DNA of 64,000 nt from Echinicola arenosa. Its GTDB lineage: Bacteria > Bacteroidota > Bacteroidia > Cytophagales > Cyclobacteriaceae. Shown piece after piece: positions 41,982 to 48,764 of this stretch. The notes beneath the pieces are model-generated. The model saw only the letters and a program-made list of their open reading frames with translations, searched no databases and was not told the origin of the DNA. Position 1 is the first letter of the stretch. Every line of letters starts with the position of its first letter. The translations under genes were made by a program, and so were the position numbers. The DNA is taken from the NCBI RefSeq assembly GCF_014841125.1, contig NZ_JACYTQ010000001.1:434001-498000 (forward strand), read 5' to 3'.

Positions 41982-43127
41982 ATGATATTTAAAGAAACTA
42001 ACTACAGGCAATTCCCTTTGCTCCTGATTTTCCTTGCAGGAATGTCATTTTTTGGATGTAAAGAAGAAGAACAAGTTGATGAAGGTTTACCCCTTCCGGT
42101 CATGACACTAAAAGAAGAAGCAGCTGCCAGATCCTATCAATATCTAGGCTCTATTGAAGGTGTCGAAAACGTTGAAATCAGACCTCAGGTAGATGGAATT
42201 TTGGAAAAAATTTATGTGGATGAAGGAGATTTTGTCAAAAAAGGCCAGCCATTATTCAAAATCAACAGCCAGCCCTACATGGAGGATCTTAAAAATGCAC
42301 AAGCAACAGTTGAATTGGAAAAGGCCAAATTGCGGAAAGCCAAAACCGAAATCGAAAGACTTCAGCCTCTTATTGACAATGAGGTTATTTCCGATGTAAG
42401 AATGCAAACTACCATTGCAGATTATGAAGTGGCCCAATCAGCCTTGGACCAAGCACAGGCTGTAGCTGCCAATATGCGGATCAACTTGGAGTTCACTACC
42501 ATCAAAGCCCCTGTTAATGGTTTTATGGGAAGGATTCCTCGCTCCATTGGCAACGTGGTTAAAAAGACAGACTCCGAACCACTGACTACCCTCTCCAATG
42601 TTCATGATGTTTATGTTTATTTTTCCATGAGTGAGTCCGACTACCTTTACTACGAAAGGATGAAAAGAGATTCCAACTCAAAAAAACTTAATCCACACGT
42701 TAAGTTGATATTGGCCGATGGAAGTATTTATGATAAGGTAGGGACTATTGATGCTAACTCTGGGCAAATCAACCGTTCTACCGGGTCCATTGCTTTGAGA
42801 GCGAAATTCTCCAATCCTGATACCCTTTTAAGGTCTGGAAACACAGGTAAAATTATGATGGAACAAATTTACCCCAATGCCATCTTGATCCCACAGGGCG
42901 CTACTACCTCTATTCACGACAAGAAGTTTGTCTATACACTCAATGAGGACAATACCGTGGACCGTAAAGAAATCAAAATTGAAGGCAGGTCTGGCAAACA
43001 ATATATAGTCAGCGATGGAAGTTTGTCTCCTAAAGACCGTATCGTTACGTCAGGCTTGGATAAATTAACCAATGGCATAAAAGTCAAACCTCTGGAGCAG
43101 GGCCAATTACTCTCTTCTGAAGACTAA
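41982..43127 (+). CDS. RND efflux periplasmic adaptor (membrane fusion) lipoprotein
   Basis: 381 residues. Lipoprotein signal (FPLLLIFLAGMSFFGC). AcrA/MexA-type adaptor: the first barrel/lipoyl half with IEGVENVEIRPQVDGILEKI and VDEGDFVKKGQPLFKIN; an alpha-helical hairpin, about 95-165 (DLKNAQATVELEKAKLRKAK ... DYEVAQSALDQAQAVAANMR); the second lipoyl half with INLEFTTIKAPVNGFMGRI; then beta-barrel and membrane-proximal domains with LRSGNTGKIMMEQI and ILIPQGATTSIHDKKFVY. It links the inner-membrane pump to the TolC-type channel. First gene of the pump operon, with the RND gene 146 bases downstream. Confidence 0.95.
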   Translation: MIFKETNYRQFPLLLIFLAGMSFFGCKEEEQVDEGLPLPVMTLKEEAAARSYQYLGSIEGVENVEIRPQVDGILEKIYVDEGDFVKKGQPLFKINSQPYMEDLKNAQATVELEKAKLRKAKTEIERLQPLIDNEVISDVRMQTTIADYEVAQSALDQAQAVAANMRINLEFTTIKAPVNGFMGRIPRSIGNVVKKTDSEPLTTLSNVHDVYVYFSMSESDYLYYERMKRDSNSKKLNPHVKLILADGSIYDKVGTIDANSGQINRSTGSIALRAKFSNPDTLLRSGNTGKIMMEQIYPNAILIPQGATTSIHDKKFVYTLNEDNTVDRKEIKIEGRSGKQYIVSDGSLSPKDRIVTSGLDKLTNGIKVKPLEQGQLLSSED

Positions 43128-43273
43128 ACCATAACTAATATCTTGAACTTAAGCTTTCACCAAAGACATGGAGGGGATTTTCCTTCTTTTGCAATTTGGT
43201 CTTGGATGAGCTATATCCATATCAAGCCCTAATTACTGTCTTTAACTCTTTTATTGGACAAAGTCATTAACCT

Positions 43274-46200
43274 ATGATCAAGAAAATAATTAACAGGCCT
43301 GTATTGGCTTTGGTAATTTCGATTCTACTGATATTGGCTGGAGCAGGAAGTATCTCTTTACTTCCAGTGGAGCGATTTCCTGAAATTGCTCCTCCAAGTG
43401 TCAGCGTTCAGGTGTACTATCCCGGTGCCAATGCCGAAACAGTCGCCAAATCGGTCCTTCTTCCCCTTGAGGAAGCCATCAACGGGGCTGAGAACATGAA
43501 CTACATCAACTCAACCGCGACCAACTCTGGACGAGGGCGTTCCACCGTTTATTTTGAACCCGGAACTGACCCCAATGTCGCTGCTGTCGAGATCCAAAAT
43601 AGAATTTCCATGGTAATGGAATCCATCCCTGCTGAAGTCAGAGAAGCCGGGATTGTGGTTTTAAAGCGACTTAAAGGCTCACTAATGACCATCCAGATTT
43701 ACAGCGATGGTGTTTATGATGAAACCTTCCTCAACGCCTACACCCGGATGAATATCAGGCGTGAACTAAAAAGAGTTGGCGGTATCGCGGAGGCCTCCAT
43801 TCTTAGGTCCAGGGATTACGCCATGAGGATCTGGCTTAACCCTGAAAAGCTGGCACTTTATGGACTTACACCGAGGGAAGTTTATAACCAAGTAAGGGAT
43901 CAAAGTTTTGAGGCCGCTCCTGGGAAATTTGGGGAAAACTCCGATGAGGTTTTCGAAATCGTGATGAAGCACAGTGGAAGGTTCAGTGAGCCCGATGAGT
44001 ATGAGAACTTGGTTATCAAAACAGAAGATGATGGCACACAACTCCGCTTAAAAGACGTGGCTAGGCTGGAGTTCGGTGCTTCCAATTATGCCAGCGACAA
44101 TAAACTGGATGGTATGTCTGCCGTAACCATTGATATTGTCCAGCAGCAGGGTGCCAATGCGGTAGAAATTGACAAAGCAGTAAGAAAGGTACTGGATGAT
44201 CAGGCTAAAGCTTTTCCAGAAGGAATGAATTATAGAATTTCTTACAGTGTGCGGGACCAGATTGACGAATCGATGCACCATGTCAAGAAAACGCTAATAG
44301 AGGCATTTATATTGGTATTTTTGGTAGTATTTATATTCCTGCAAAATTTTAGGGCCACAATTATTACAGCCATTTCCATTCCCGTATCCCTTATCGGTAC
44401 ATTCTTCTTTCTCAACATGATTGGAGCTACGATGAACGTACTGAGTATGTTCTCCATTGTGCTTGCCATTGGTATTGTGGTCGATGATGCCATTGTGGTC
44501 ATTGAGGCCATTTATGAAAAAATGGAAGATGAAGGCATGAAGGTTAAGCAAGCTGTAGTATCAGCCATGTCTGAAATCACCAGTGCCATTATCTCAATCA
44601 CCATTGTGATCGCTGCGGTATTCTTACCCGTAGGATTCTTAGATGGCCCAGTAGGTGTCTTTTATCAGGAATTTGCTTACACCATCATCTTCGCTGTTTT
44701 GATTTCTGCTGTAAATGCCTTAACACTGGTACCTGTACTGAGTGCACTAATTCTAAAAGAAAAGGATCCTGAAAAAAGGAAAAAAAGAATACCGCTAATT
44801 GAGAGGATTCGCAACTCTAGGGCTGCTTCAAAAGCAATTGATATTAGGGATAAGGGCCTCCGTAAGTTCGACAGTGCTTTTGATAAATTTACCGAAAAAT
44901 ACCTTCAAGTAGTCAAATGGGTTATTCTCCACAAATGGTGGACTACTGGAGCATTAGTGGTGGTTTCGGCACTTACCTTCTTTTTGGCTACAGTCACTCC
45001 AAAAGGCTTTATCCCTACAGAAGATGATAATTTCCTTATTTTCTCCTTGACCATGCCTGAAGGTTCATCACTTCACCGAACCAACCAAGTATTGAAACAA
45101 GCGGATTCGCTACTGCAGCAGGAAACTTCAGTGGCCAGCGTGAACACCGTTTCTGGATATAATATTGTCGATGACTCAGAGAGTTCTTCAACAGGCTTAG
45201 GCTATATCAAACTTCATGAGATCGGAGAAAGGGGCGAGTATAAGGAAATAAATGAAGTAGTGAAACGCCTATCAGAAAAACTAAGCGTTCTCAGTGAAGC
45301 TCGGGTCAATATTTACCCCAGACCAACCGTACAGGGCTTTGGTAACTTTGATGGGGTACAAATTGTCCTTCAAGACTACTCTGACGGTGATTATGGAGAA
45401 TTTGGATTGTTGATCAATGAATTTATCGCTGAGCTAACCAAGCAAAAGCAGATTGAAAAAGCTTTTACCTCCTATAACCCTAACTTCCCTCAATATAAAA
45501 TCAACATTGATTATGAGAAGGCCAAAGCTATGGGAGTGAGCGTGAAAGACATGATGTTCACGATCCAGTCCAACTTTGGCAGAACCCGTGTGGGAGATTT
45601 CAACCGTTTCACCCGTCAATATATGGTTTATATGCAATCCGACATCCAGTATAGGGAAACACCAGAAGCGATCAACTCCATCATGGTAAAAAATGACCAA
45701 GGAGAAATGGTTCCCATCAACACATTTGTGAAACTAGAGGAAACCTATGGACCTGAAACGGTCTTTAGATACAACCTATACAGTGCAGCCAGAATTAATA
45801 TTACCCCTGCCAAAGGATACAGTACTGGAGATGTCATGGATGTCATTGAGGAATTGACGAAAAGCAAACTTCCTGCAAACTTAGGCTTTGAGTGGACAGG
45901 TATGAGCTTGGAAGAGAAAAAGTCAGGTTCCAACACCACATTGGTATTTATCATCAGTATCATCCTGATATACTTCATCTTGGCAGCCCAATACGAAAGC
46001 TTCTGGTTACCAATGGCAGTAATCCTTTCCCTACCGGCAGGTATTTTAGGAGTCTTTGTTTTCATCAACCTAGCCGGCATAGACAACAACATTTATGTTC
46101 AGGTAGGACTGGTGATGCTGATAGGCTTACTTGCCAAAAACGCCATATTGATTGTTGAGTTTGTTGCGCAAAAAAGACGAGAAGGCCTCGAACTGGAGGA

Positions 46201-46456
46201 TGCTGTTGTTGAAGCATGTGCCTTAAGAATTCGCCCCATCTTGATGACTTCATTTGCTTTCACAGCAGGTTTGGTTCCATTGATGTTTTCTGTGGGTTCA
46301 TCCGCCCAAGGTACCAAATCGGTGAGTATCGGTACTGCTGGCGGTATGATTTTCGGAATATCTTTAGGTGTCATTTTTATCCCTGTATTGGCCTATATCT
46401 TCCAAAGAATCCAGGACAAGTACAGTATTGAAACCATTGAACAAGAAGAACTATGA
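43274..46456 (+). CDS. RND multidrug efflux permease (HAE1/AcrB type)
   Basis: Inner-membrane proton-driven efflux transporter. 1060 residues, full length, with 12 membrane segments and two large periplasmic loops. The N-terminus starts with IINRPVLALVISILLILAGA and VERFPEIAPPSVSVQVYYPG, typical of AcrB homologues. The proton-relay Asp pair lies in TM4 (GIVVDDAIVVIEAIYEKM), and the conserved Lys of TM10 in MLIGLLAKNAILIVEFV. The central LPVGFLDGPVGVFYQEFAYT and the late LRIRPILMTSFAFTAGLVP and SVSIGTAGGMIFG are family signatures. Its stop overlaps the start of the outer-membrane channel gene by four bases (ATGA), showing translational coupling. HAE1 members usually export amphiphilic drugs, bile-type detergents or dyes; the actual substrate here is unknown. 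Confidence 0.97.
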   Translation: MIKKIINRPVLALVISILLILAGAGSISLLPVERFPEIAPPSVSVQVYYPGANAETVAKSVLLPLEEAINGAENMNYINSTATNSGRGRSTVYFEPGTDPNVAAVEIQNRISMVMESIPAEVREAGIVVLKRLKGSLMTIQIYSDGVYDETFLNAYTRMNIRRELKRVGGIAEASILRSRDYAMRIWLNPEKLALYGLTPREVYNQVRDQSFEAAPGKFGENSDEVFEIVMKHSGRFSEPDEYENLVIKTEDDGTQLRLKDVARLEFGASNYASDNKLDGMSAVTIDIVQQQGANAVEIDKAVRKVLDDQAKAFPEGMNYRISYSVRDQIDESMHHVKKTLIEAFILVFLVVFIFLQNFRATIITAISIPVSLIGTFFFLNMIGATMNVLSMFSIVLAIGIVVDDAIVVIEAIYEKMEDEGMKVKQAVVSAMSEITSAIISITIVIAAVFLPVGFLDGPVGVFYQEFAYTIIFAVLISAVNALTLVPVLSALILKEKDPEKRKKRIPLIERIRNSRAASKAIDIRDKGLRKFDSAFDKFTEKYLQVVKWVILHKWWTTGALVVVSALTFFLATVTPKGFIPTEDDNFLIFSLTMPEGSSLHRTNQVLKQADSLLQQETSVASVNTVSGYNIVDDSESSSTGLGYIKLHEIGERGEYKEINEVVKRLSEKLSVLSEARVNIYPRPTVQGFGNFDGVQIVLQDYSDGDYGEFGLLINEFIAELTKQKQIEKAFTSYNPNFPQYKINIDYEKAKAMGVSVKDMMFTIQSNFGRTRVGDFNRFTRQYMVYMQSDIQYRETPEAINSIMVKNDQGEMVPINTFVKLEETYGPETVFRYNLYSAARINITPAKGYSTGDVMDVIEELTKSKLPANLGFEWTGMSLEEKKSGSNTTLVFIISIILIYFILAAQYESFWLPMAVILSLPAGILGVFVFINLAGIDNNIYVQVGLVMLIGLLAKNAILIVEFVAQKRREGLELEDAVVEACALRIRPILMTSFAFTAGLVPLMFSVGSSAQGTKSVSIGTAGGMIFGISLGVIFIPVLAYIFQRIQDKYSIETIEQEEL

Positions 46457-47913
46457 AAGTTTTTAGAAAATTAATTCCCCTTGGCTTGGTTTTACTTACA
46501 GTAGCAAGCTGCAAGGTTGGACAATCATATAAAAGACCAGAGGTGAATTTTCCGGAGGAATACTATGGAGCAGACAGTCTCAGAGATAGTGTCTTGACCG
46601 GAGAGAAAAACATTGCCACGCTAGACTGGAAAAGTTATTTCAAAGACTCCACATTGGTGAGTTTGATCGATACAGCTTTGTCCAATAATCTTGACATGCA
46701 AAAAGTGGCCAAGGAAATTGAGATTGGTTACCAAAACCTTAAGCAATCCAAAGCCAACTTCTTCCCTACTTTAGGCGCATCTCCTTTTAAATACAACAGG
46801 GAATATTATTCAGAGTATTATAATAACTATGGCTCCAACCGGTCCAGAAGAAATCATGGAGACAATCCTCCCACGACCCTGTATACGGAGAGACTTGAAT
46901 ATGTTTCTTCCCTTCAGGCAAGTTGGGAGATTGATATATGGGGGAAGTTTAGGTGGCAAAAAGAAGCGGCACAGGCAGAATTCATGAAAACACAGGAATT
47001 TAAAAAAGCAGTCCAAACTGCTTTGGTCTCTGAAATTGCTTCTACTTATTTGAATATGCTGATGCTCAAATCTCAACTTACAGTTTCCAAAAGAAATTAT
47101 GAGCTAAGCAAAAATACCCTTAGAATCGTCAACCTGCAATATGATGCTGGAGAAACTACTTCTCTAGCGGTCCAACAGACCAAATCCCAGATGCTTCGTT
47201 CAAAAGCACTGATCCCTGATCTGGAAAAAGCTTATGCCATTCAAGAAACCAAGCTAAATCAGCTTTTGGGAAGATCACCTCAAGAGGTAAAGCTCACCCA
47301 CCACTTGGAAGACGTAACATTTGACAGCGCCTATCAAACTGGTGTTCCTGTGGAACTAATCCAAAACCGACCGGATATTGCAGCATCTGAGTATAACCTG
47401 ATCATCAGCAATGCAAGGGTTGGAATCACAGAAGCCATGAAATACCCTTCCTTGACCATTAGCGGTGGAATCGGATTGAATTCTTACCAAATCCAACATT
47501 TCCTTGACCCACTTGGAGCAGGTTTTGCTATCGTGAACGGTGCCCTTTTCCAGCCTATCTTTCAAAACAGAAAGTTAAAAACCAACCACCTGATCGCTAT
47601 CAATGAAAGGGAAATAGCTCAATTGGATTTCAAAGATAAAATTATCGGTGCCGTTGGGGAAGTTTCCAATGCCTTGGTAACTATAGAAAAGCTTCAGGAA
47701 GCGCATGATATTTCCGCTGAAAGACTCAAAGTTACCAACAAAGGAGTAAAAGATGCCTTCCTACTGTTTCAAAGCGGATTTGCCAACTATCTTGAAATCA
47801 TCAATGCCCAAGAAGATGCTTTAGAAAACCAAATGGAGCTGGTAAGACTAAAAATGCAACTGGCCATAGCCAACATTGAACTGTACAGGAGTCTCGGTGG
47901 TGGATGGAAATAA
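46453..47913 (+). CDS. outer-membrane efflux channel (TolC/NodT family) lipoprotein
   Basis: 486 residues. Lipoprotein signal (MKVFRKLIPLGLVLLTVASC, Cys20) followed by KVGQSYKRPEVNFP, as in NodT/OprM-type channels. Two OEP repeats of long coiled-coil helices follow (LVSLIDTALSNNLDMQKVAK; QTALVSEIASTYLNMLMLKS; AISAERLKV-type helix in the second half; ANYLEIINAQEDALENQMEL). The conserved VPVELIQNRPDIAASEYNL and AGFAIVNGALFQPIFQNRKL are present. It forms the trimeric exit duct for the RND pump. Translationally coupled to the pump gene and followed by a strong terminator. Confidence 0.95.
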   Translation: MKVFRKLIPLGLVLLTVASCKVGQSYKRPEVNFPEEYYGADSLRDSVLTGEKNIATLDWKSYFKDSTLVSLIDTALSNNLDMQKVAKEIEIGYQNLKQSKANFFPTLGASPFKYNREYYSEYYNNYGSNRSRRNHGDNPPTTLYTERLEYVSSLQASWEIDIWGKFRWQKEAAQAEFMKTQEFKKAVQTALVSEIASTYLNMLMLKSQLTVSKRNYELSKNTLRIVNLQYDAGETTSLAVQQTKSQMLRSKALIPDLEKAYAIQETKLNQLLGRSPQEVKLTHHLEDVTFDSAYQTGVPVELIQNRPDIAASEYNLIISNARVGITEAMKYPSLTISGGIGLNSYQIQHFLDPLGAGFAIVNGALFQPIFQNRKLKTNHLIAINEREIAQLDFKDKIIGAVGEVSNALVTIEKLQEAHDISAERLKVTNKGVKDAFLLFQSGFANYLEIINAQEDALENQMELVRLKMQLAIANIELYRSLGGGWK

Positions 47914-47997: not shown

Positions 47998-48489
47998 TCA
48001 ATAACTTAACTCATTGAAGAGCAACTTTTCTTCTAATCGGTGCTTCTTTTCATTAATCAGCACTTTTCTTAAAACTTGCTTAAACCTGATTTCTTGGTTT
48101 ACGATTTTAAAGATTTTCTCTAAGTATTCCTTAGCTACCTCTTCATTCCTTTTATAGAACTTCAAGGTAAAACTTCTTTTATCATGAATATTTTCCAAGA
48201 AAACTTCTTTAGGTTGACCAGCCAAAACAATGCCTCTAAAGAATGCATAATGATCGACCAAGTCACCTTTTAAACTAAAATAGATGGCCTGAAAGCTTTT
48301 GTTGGAACCAGGAAAGTTCCCAAAGTTAAAATCTGCCGAACCTTCTACCTGAACAGATTCATGTTCATTTAACCATTCGAAGGCACTTATTGCCCCATTA
48401 TCCTGATTTAAATTTCGAATAACAGATTGAAAAGTGAAAGTGTTACCGTTTAGACTTGAAGTATTATAATTTGAAGCTGTTGCTGTCAT
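47998..48489 (-). CDS. unknown 163-residue protein behind a SAM-I riboswitch; no Cys, no internal Met
   Basis: I do not recognise a family. The predicted protein is soluble (no signal peptide, no membrane segment), begins with a low-complexity MTATASNYNTSSLNGN stretch, has a mixed beta-rich middle (SFQAIYFSLKGDLVDHYAFF, RSFTLKFYKRNEE) and a basic helical C-terminus (RFKQVLRKVLINEKKHRLEEKL). It contains no cysteine and no methionine except the initiator. The SAM-I riboswitch (48606-48719) and a 21-codon ORF ending Cys-Cys (48541-48606) lie immediately upstream on the same strand; the gene ends before a bidirectional terminator, so it is the only long gene of this transcript. Expected expression is high when SAM is low. 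A role in sulfur-limited growth is inferred from the riboswitch and from the sulfur-free composition, not from homology. Confidence 0.75.
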   Translation of the reverse strand: MTATASNYNTSSLNGNTFTFQSVIRNLNQDNGAISAFEWLNEHESVQVEGSADFNFGNFPGSNKSFQAIYFSLKGDLVDHYAFFRGIVLAGQPKEVFLENIHDKRSFTLKFYKRNEEVAKEYLEKIFKIVNQEIRFKQVLRKVLINEKKHRLEEKLLFNELSY

Positions 48490-48540
48490 GATTTCTTATT
48501 TTTTGAAGTTATTAGTTTTTTGAATTACTGTGCCTGATAA

Positions 48541-48606
48541 TCAGCAACAGTTTGATGAAGTTTTGCCCAGTAAGTCCTGCATTCGCTGTGTTCCCATGGT
48601 TTTCAT
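48541..48606 (-). CDS. 21-codon leader ORF ending Asn-Cys-Cys after the SAM riboswitch
   Basis: Reads MKTMGTQRMQDLLGKTSSN then Cys-Cys and TGA. The A of its ATG (48606) is the last base of the riboswitch P1 3' arm, so ligand binding could hide or expose its start. It has three internal sulfur-relevant Met codons in the first half (two after the initiator, at positions 4 and 9) and two consecutive Cys codons at the end, as in amino-acid-sensing leader peptides. The next ORF starts 51 bases downstream. Whether it is translated is not shown by sequence alone. Confidence 0.55.
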   Translation of the reverse strand: MKTMGTQRMQDLLGKTSSNCC

Positions 48607-48719
48607 AATTTATAGGTCCTTTAATTGATTTAGGCAGGATTTAGCACCTTTTCTCTTCACGAGGGATAGGTTGCTATAGGTTCTATGAGCCTGTTCTCTC
48701 CCCTATTCTTTATAAATTA
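48606..48719 (-). promoter_or_regulatory. SAM-I (S-box) riboswitch
   Basis: Read on the - strand. P1 is perfect: TAATTTATA (48719-48711) pairs with TATAAATTA (48614-48606). Between them lie the family's conserved blocks in order: AAAGAATAGGGGAGAG (P2 5' side), ACAGGCTCATAGAACC (P3 and kink-turn region), TAGCAACCTATCCC (P2 3' side with the invariant GCAACC) and AAAAGGTGCTAAATCCTGCC (P4 and junction). This order and spacing match the SAM-I class. It binds S-adenosylmethionine and turns off downstream expression. No separate terminator stem was seen between it and the following ORF, so control may be translational. Confidence 0.9.
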
Positions 48720-48756
48720 GCTACTTACCGACTTGGCTTTTCACTAATAACTTTTT

Positions 48757-48764
48757 CAAAGGTA
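48757..48764 (-). promoter_or_regulatory. candidate -7 promoter box for the riboswitch transcript
   Basis: On the - strand TACCTTTG matches TAnnTTTG exactly and lies about 38 bases upstream of riboswitch P1. The -33 region is T-rich (TTAGTTTTT) without an exact TTTG at the ideal spacing. Confidence 0.5.

Follow-up and report, generated by a model that had tools for sequence, protein, structure and literature searches.

The stretch of Echinicola arenosa DNA analysed here, referred to below as the window, is 64,000 nucleotides long and carries a SAM-I riboswitch on its minus strand, at 48718-48607. The covariance model RF00162 was matched over its full length (model positions 1-108 of 108; 72.3 bits, E 5.5e-15; gathering score 44.4) and was the sole family above its gathering score when the 64-kb window was scanned with cmscan. 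The aptamer helix P1 (TAATTTATA/TATAAATTA) is made up of nine standard pairs, and the aptamer has its GCAACC and GGTGCTAAATCCTGCC blocks as well; the first-pass annotation, which had read a complete SAM-I aptamer from the letters alone, was right on this point. At 48764-48757 (-) lies TACCTTTG, a candidate -7 box fitting TAnnTTTG, the -7 box motif of Bacteroidota promoters. This motif is present 5′ of the aptamer in all 12 loci examined (11 Echinicola and G050).

Between the riboswitch and a terminator-like hairpin at 47965-47938 (-), which reads in both directions, there is a single minus-strand ORF of at least 60 amino acids. This is the gene at 48489-47998 (-), encoding 163 aa, which had indeed been described as the only long one before the terminator. 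The scan for terminator-like sites on the minus strand revealed none between the riboswitch and the gene, or between the short ORF described next and the gene. An RND-efflux-like trio (adaptor, pump, and outer-membrane factor; named by eye) at 41982-47913 ends just past the hairpin. The E. arenosa genome contains four RF00162 matches in all, and from their translations the genes behind the other three read as metY, metH, and metZ.

A short upstream ORF (uORF), MGTQRMQDLLGKTSSNCC, is located between the riboswitch and the gene at 48597-48541 (-) and was missed in the first-pass annotation. It begins 9 nt past P1, with an alternative in-frame start at an ATG (48606) that adjoins P1. The uORF ends CC, and thus has codons of the amino acid that would be sensed near its end, as is characteristic of leader peptides; we infer that the riboswitch acts first on this peptide.

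Cys-tailed uORFs behind SAM-I riboswitches

The riboswitch, the uORF, and a homologue of the gene are each found in 11 of 11 Echinicola genomes. At least two Cys residues stand at or beside the uORF end in ten of these, including one (L085) that ends CCCR, and the remaining uORF (L089) has a single Cys at its end. The peptides share an RMQ-like core and the Cys end, with a pN/pS of 0.52 for equal-length pairs; the value for the gene is 0.24 over 55 pairs. A search for further CCC-stop uORFs in E. arenosa gave 48 pattern matches, with loci for 30, among which the two short frames both lay inside long open frames and were rejected.

In the host's family 110 other SAM-I sites were inspected, namely 30 loci plus 80 taken in score-ranked listing order, for uORFs of at least 20 codons within 25 nt of the aptamer. 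This sample is non-random, being score-ranked among the matches listed, some genomes supply several sites, and L095 and L105 were dropped as cut. Among the matches listed, a TATRAA-type P1 occurs at 46 of the 110 sites; a uORF follows in 41 of these 46, versus 4 of the 64 sites with other P1 types. The uORF start is 6-9 nt past the aptamer in 40 of the 41. The gene behind the 46 sites, assigned by motif, is metY in 38, metZ-like in four, ferredoxin-like in two, metX-like in one, and unassigned in one, while metH, likewise assigned by motif, stands behind 47 of the 64 others. P1 type and gene type therefore co-vary, and their effects are inseparable in the 110-site sample. The two ferredoxin-like cases (L120 and L122, two genomes of one genus) have SAM-I and a Cys-tailed uORF before the gene.

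Of the 1419 residues in the 38 non-redundant uORFs 140 are Cys, and 125 of these Cys fall in the last third. One thousand dinucleotide shuffles of the same uORFs gave on average 63 Cys and never more than 85, and the other frames contain 2.9-4.1% Cys. The doublet CC is found in 24 of the 38 (shuffles: mean 3.1, maximum 9) and CCC in 15 (mean 0.2, maximum 3); four have no Cys at all. Both Cys codons are used (TGT 82, TGC 58). At least two Cys occur among the last 12 residues in 30 of the 41 TATRAA-type uORFs, and the 11 without include those of E. arenosa metY and metZ.

A further 79 sites, at most 27 per group, were taken from other families, with a uORF criterion of at least 15 codons; L220, L237, L257, L268, and L279 were left out as cut, and L225 and L272 as belonging to the same family. 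In family f4 all 13 TATRAA-type sites have a uORF, 12 of them with a Cys tail, compared with a uORF at 2 of 15 sites of other P1 types. The other families of the host's order have a uORF at 10 of 13 TATRAA-type sites (six with a Cys tail) and at 2 of 12 others. In the rest of the class the TATRAA type was found at none of 26 sites, and a uORF at one. In one f4 genome (L252) there is no uORF, and metY itself begins 10 nt past P1, as though any start codon at that place were blocked by P1. A strict DNA pattern run over the phylum matched in 7 of 395 genomes, and its reversed form in none among the matches listed; the pattern is too strict, and these numbers are therefore no measure of phylum-wide spread.

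The Cys-tailed peptide might itself be the product, as a small thiol- or metal-binding peptide to which the downstream gene is secondary, and the conservation within Echinicola (the pN/pS given above, the RMQ-like core, and the Cys end) is what one would look for in that case. Outside Echinicola, however, the peptide bodies vary widely and the parts that recur are the Cys tail and the start spacing, which is expected of leader peptides. We regard a peptide product as quite improbable.

Another explanation is ordinary SAM-I control of the gene, with the uORF being a translated spacer that couples initiation and whose Cys codons sense nothing. The 11 of 41 uORFs lacking two Cys in their last 12 residues would fit a spacer, as would the uORF-less metY at L252. 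So would the RNA structures, among which pairing and shuffle comparisons found no attenuator common to the leaders. In E. arenosa, MFE folds predict a hairpin at 48551-48527 (-) with the Cys codons in its 5′ arm; across Echinicola its mean z is -1.87 and 9 of 11 loci lie below -1 when the downstream part is shuffled. Outside the genus the Cys tail did not pair with the following sequence more than shuffles did (6.3 vs 6.4 nt, n=48), and similar downstream structure is seen where the uORF has no Cys tail. Since structure is no better than shuffles elsewhere, we infer the Cys-sensing step from the codons, not from structure. What speaks against a mere spacer is that the Cys enrichment near the stop is far above both the shuffles and the other frames, and that it is repeated in f4; on balance we consider the spacer unlikely, and Cys sensing by a leader peptide the better account of the tail.

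A general switch in which the Cys codons pair with the gene start codon was considered and dropped, because native pairs had no advantage over swapped ones (mean -7.66 vs -7.44 kcal/mol, with 0.21 of 2000 permutations as good as native) and, in Echinicola, synonymous recoding was beaten at 0.05 in only 4 of 11 loci.

The 163-residue protein and its relatives

Searches of Pfam and NCBIfam with the 163-aa protein gave no match up to E 10, and none was found in the PDB; it thus remains as unrecognised by families as the first-pass annotation had it. Its AlphaFold2 model (pLDDT 75.2, pTM 0.59) returned nothing from Foldseek at E ≤0.001, and no MetY was among the 50 entries listed. A homologue is present in 35 of 148 genomes of the host's family. 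Seven of these 35 loci have SAM-I upstream (E. arenosa, G111, G047, G146, G050, G015, and G132); the other 28 have none within the loci scanned. An arginine decarboxylase gene lies directly 3′ of the homologue in 22 of the 35 (loci L040-L070).

When 118 genomes of the host's order were searched with a profile, three matches besides E. arenosa came up, all in family f110 (E 1e-8 to 9e-7). The matched region is the C-terminal part of proteins 364-390 aa long, which themselves match PF01053, the family of MetY (O-acetylhomoserine sulfhydrylase), and all three MetY-like genes are behind SAM-I. Two of the three uORFs end ISC and ACC, and that of G718 has no Cys tail. In hhalign the 163-aa family aligned with the three f110 proteins over about 80 columns (residues 73-154) at a probability of 96.5, and the start MTAI.. 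is common to both. The column of the catalytic Lys is occupied by S, N, and S in the f110 proteins. A hydrolase of about 36% identity is encoded 3′ of the G132 homologue and of the MetY-like genes of G718 and G693, but not of that in G640. In G718, argS, glutathione-peroxidase-like, and menA-like genes are nearby as in the window (56-65% identity), the MetY-like gene having a direction relative to argS unlike that in the window.

The 163-aa protein is too short to accommodate the PLP domain and matches nothing in Pfam, so we call it a relative of PF01053 and not a member. Its homology to the C-terminal domain runs through the longer relatives and has the support of hhalign but not of Foldseek. 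The protein (47998-48489, -) probably derives by shortening from a MetY paralogue, with loss of the PLP domain and retention of the C-terminal domain, to judge from these sequence comparisons. As to its function, one may guess at a small protein that associates with MetY or another sulfur-use enzyme and modulates it.

An unrelated small protein family recruited behind SAM-I, whose likeness to MetY results from fusion or chance, would explain why neither Pfam nor the PDB nor Foldseek gave a significant match, why only about 80 columns align, and why there are but three MetY-like carriers, all f110. It would leave unexplained that both groups have the same leader type, the shared MTAI.. start, and the hydrolase shared by G132 and two of the three carriers; moreover, the predicted strand order appears compatible with the MetY C-terminal domain. 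Such an origin is in our opinion rather unlikely, and descent from MetY is preferred.

A feature of the Echinicola proteins is that they contain no Met or Cys past the start (0 of 1780 residues in 11 proteins). Among the other homologues with SAM-I, G050 has none, and G015 and G132 have one each. The 28 homologues without SAM-I have a mean of 2.9 (one has none, and three have at most one; some starts were chosen by hand), and the f110 MetY-like proteins have 2, 2, and 1 in 363, 392, and 389 residues. The 163-aa protein alone lacks both residues among 41 mechanically picked window ORFs of at least 130 aa, and at the window rate the chance of zero in 162 residues is 0.006. Echinicola represents one lineage, and the number of independent events is therefore small. 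A protein of this composition suits production when sulfur amino acids run out.

The first-pass annotation had argued from the riboswitch to a new protein of sulfur metabolism or sulfur limitation. The sulfur link is supported by the co-occurrence of riboswitch and gene in every Echinicola genome and at 7 of 35 homologue loci, by the Cys-tailed uORF, and by the MetY-like profile similarity, and the lack of Met and Cys would agree with sulfur limitation. The check it had proposed, whether homologues elsewhere also stand behind SAM-I, was positive at those seven loci and for the f110 genes but not at the other 28, and the homology searches it had suggested succeeded by profile comparison and failed against Pfam, NCBIfam, and Foldseek. 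The word "new" has to be given up in part: the gene probably did not arise entirely de novo.

A palindrome, CCCTACAAAATCTATAGGG, lies at 48809-48791 (-) and is probably an operator, judging by its recurrence. Searched as CCCTATAA-N3-TTATAGGG, with at most three mismatches in 16 fixed positions and at most 700 nt upstream, it stands 5′ of 32 of the 35 homologues, G015, G067, and G132 being without it. Forty-two sites were found in the loci; ten lie elsewhere, nine of them next to TauE/SafE or TonB-receptor genes, a pattern suggestive of a small regulon under one regulator. In the E. arenosa genome there are two palindromes with two mismatches besides the gene's own; the reversed control gave four, and this search therefore says little. 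One two-mismatch palindrome, at L334 6840 (G000:C3:66839-66857), is located between an ABC transporter gene and a MarR-like gene that is followed by ferredoxin reductase-like and ferredoxin-like genes; all were named by eye. The main control might instead lie with a DNA-binding protein at the palindrome, leaving the riboswitch as a vestige. In favor of this, the palindrome is also present where SAM-I is absent and an Rrf2 regulator gene is directly upstream in 10 of 35 loci. Against it, the aptamer is intact in 11 of 11 Echinicola, and G015 and G132 keep SAM-I without the palindrome; we consider such control very improbable.

A putative two-step sulfur-status leader

The interpretation that we favor, at a probability of roughly 60%, is that a two-step sulfur-status leader precedes a MetY-derived, Met/Cys-free protein. 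In the first step SAM would close P1, a structure assigned by homology, the 3′ strand of which ends 6-9 nt before the uORF start codon; with P1 closed so near that start, the uORF would be translated only at low SAM. In the second step a ribosome at the Cys codons would report the supply of charged Cys-tRNA just before the stop. Stalling there might melt the Cys-codon hairpin and so favor the downstream gene, the direction of this effect being guessed from how known attenuators behave. With the riboswitch in front of a Cys-ending uORF, sulfur supply may thus be read twice. Whether a SAM-I-gated Cys leader is widespread in Bacteroidota as a two-input gate of metY, with Echinicola having turned a Met/Cys-free MetY remnant into a sulfur-starvation protein, we put at about even odds.

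If true, a SAM aptamer and a Cys leader at fixed spacing would join both sulfur amino-acid branches in one RNA, and would offer a simple testable model in a phylum with little-studied RNA control. The Met/Cys-free protein would be a case of an enzyme fragment retained for sulfur-poor times.

Riboswitches and leader peptides have mostly been described separately. Actinobacterial leader peptides with Cys codons are reportedly the subject of Canestrari 2020. The open papers searched, subscription papers being outside the scope, yielded no account of a SAM-I aptamer with a Cys-codon leader peptide behind it. The actinobacterial leaders are short ORFs before sulfur genes in which consecutive Cys codons lie close to the stop codon, and for which a terminator hairpin was not found either; they differ in having no riboswitch in front, in the phylum, and in the target genes (PMC1262725). 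The uORFC-8-2 preceding cysS in Rhodobacterales has two tandem Cys codons within a stem, but, as far as the available text goes, an intrinsic terminator and no riboswitch (PMC8632094). A riboswitch controlling a translated uORF before a gene is known from Mycobacterium tuberculosis ppe2; the ligand there is B12, and the available portion of that paper does not describe a Cys-codon tail (PMC11260477). Compared to MetY (PF01053), which the longer f110 relatives match, the 163-aa protein has neither the PLP domain nor a Pfam match. The aptamer itself is a full-length SAM-I (S-box) element above the gathering score of RF00162, but its P1 ends a few nucleotides before a Cys-tailed uORF, in place of direct control of a terminator or of the gene start.
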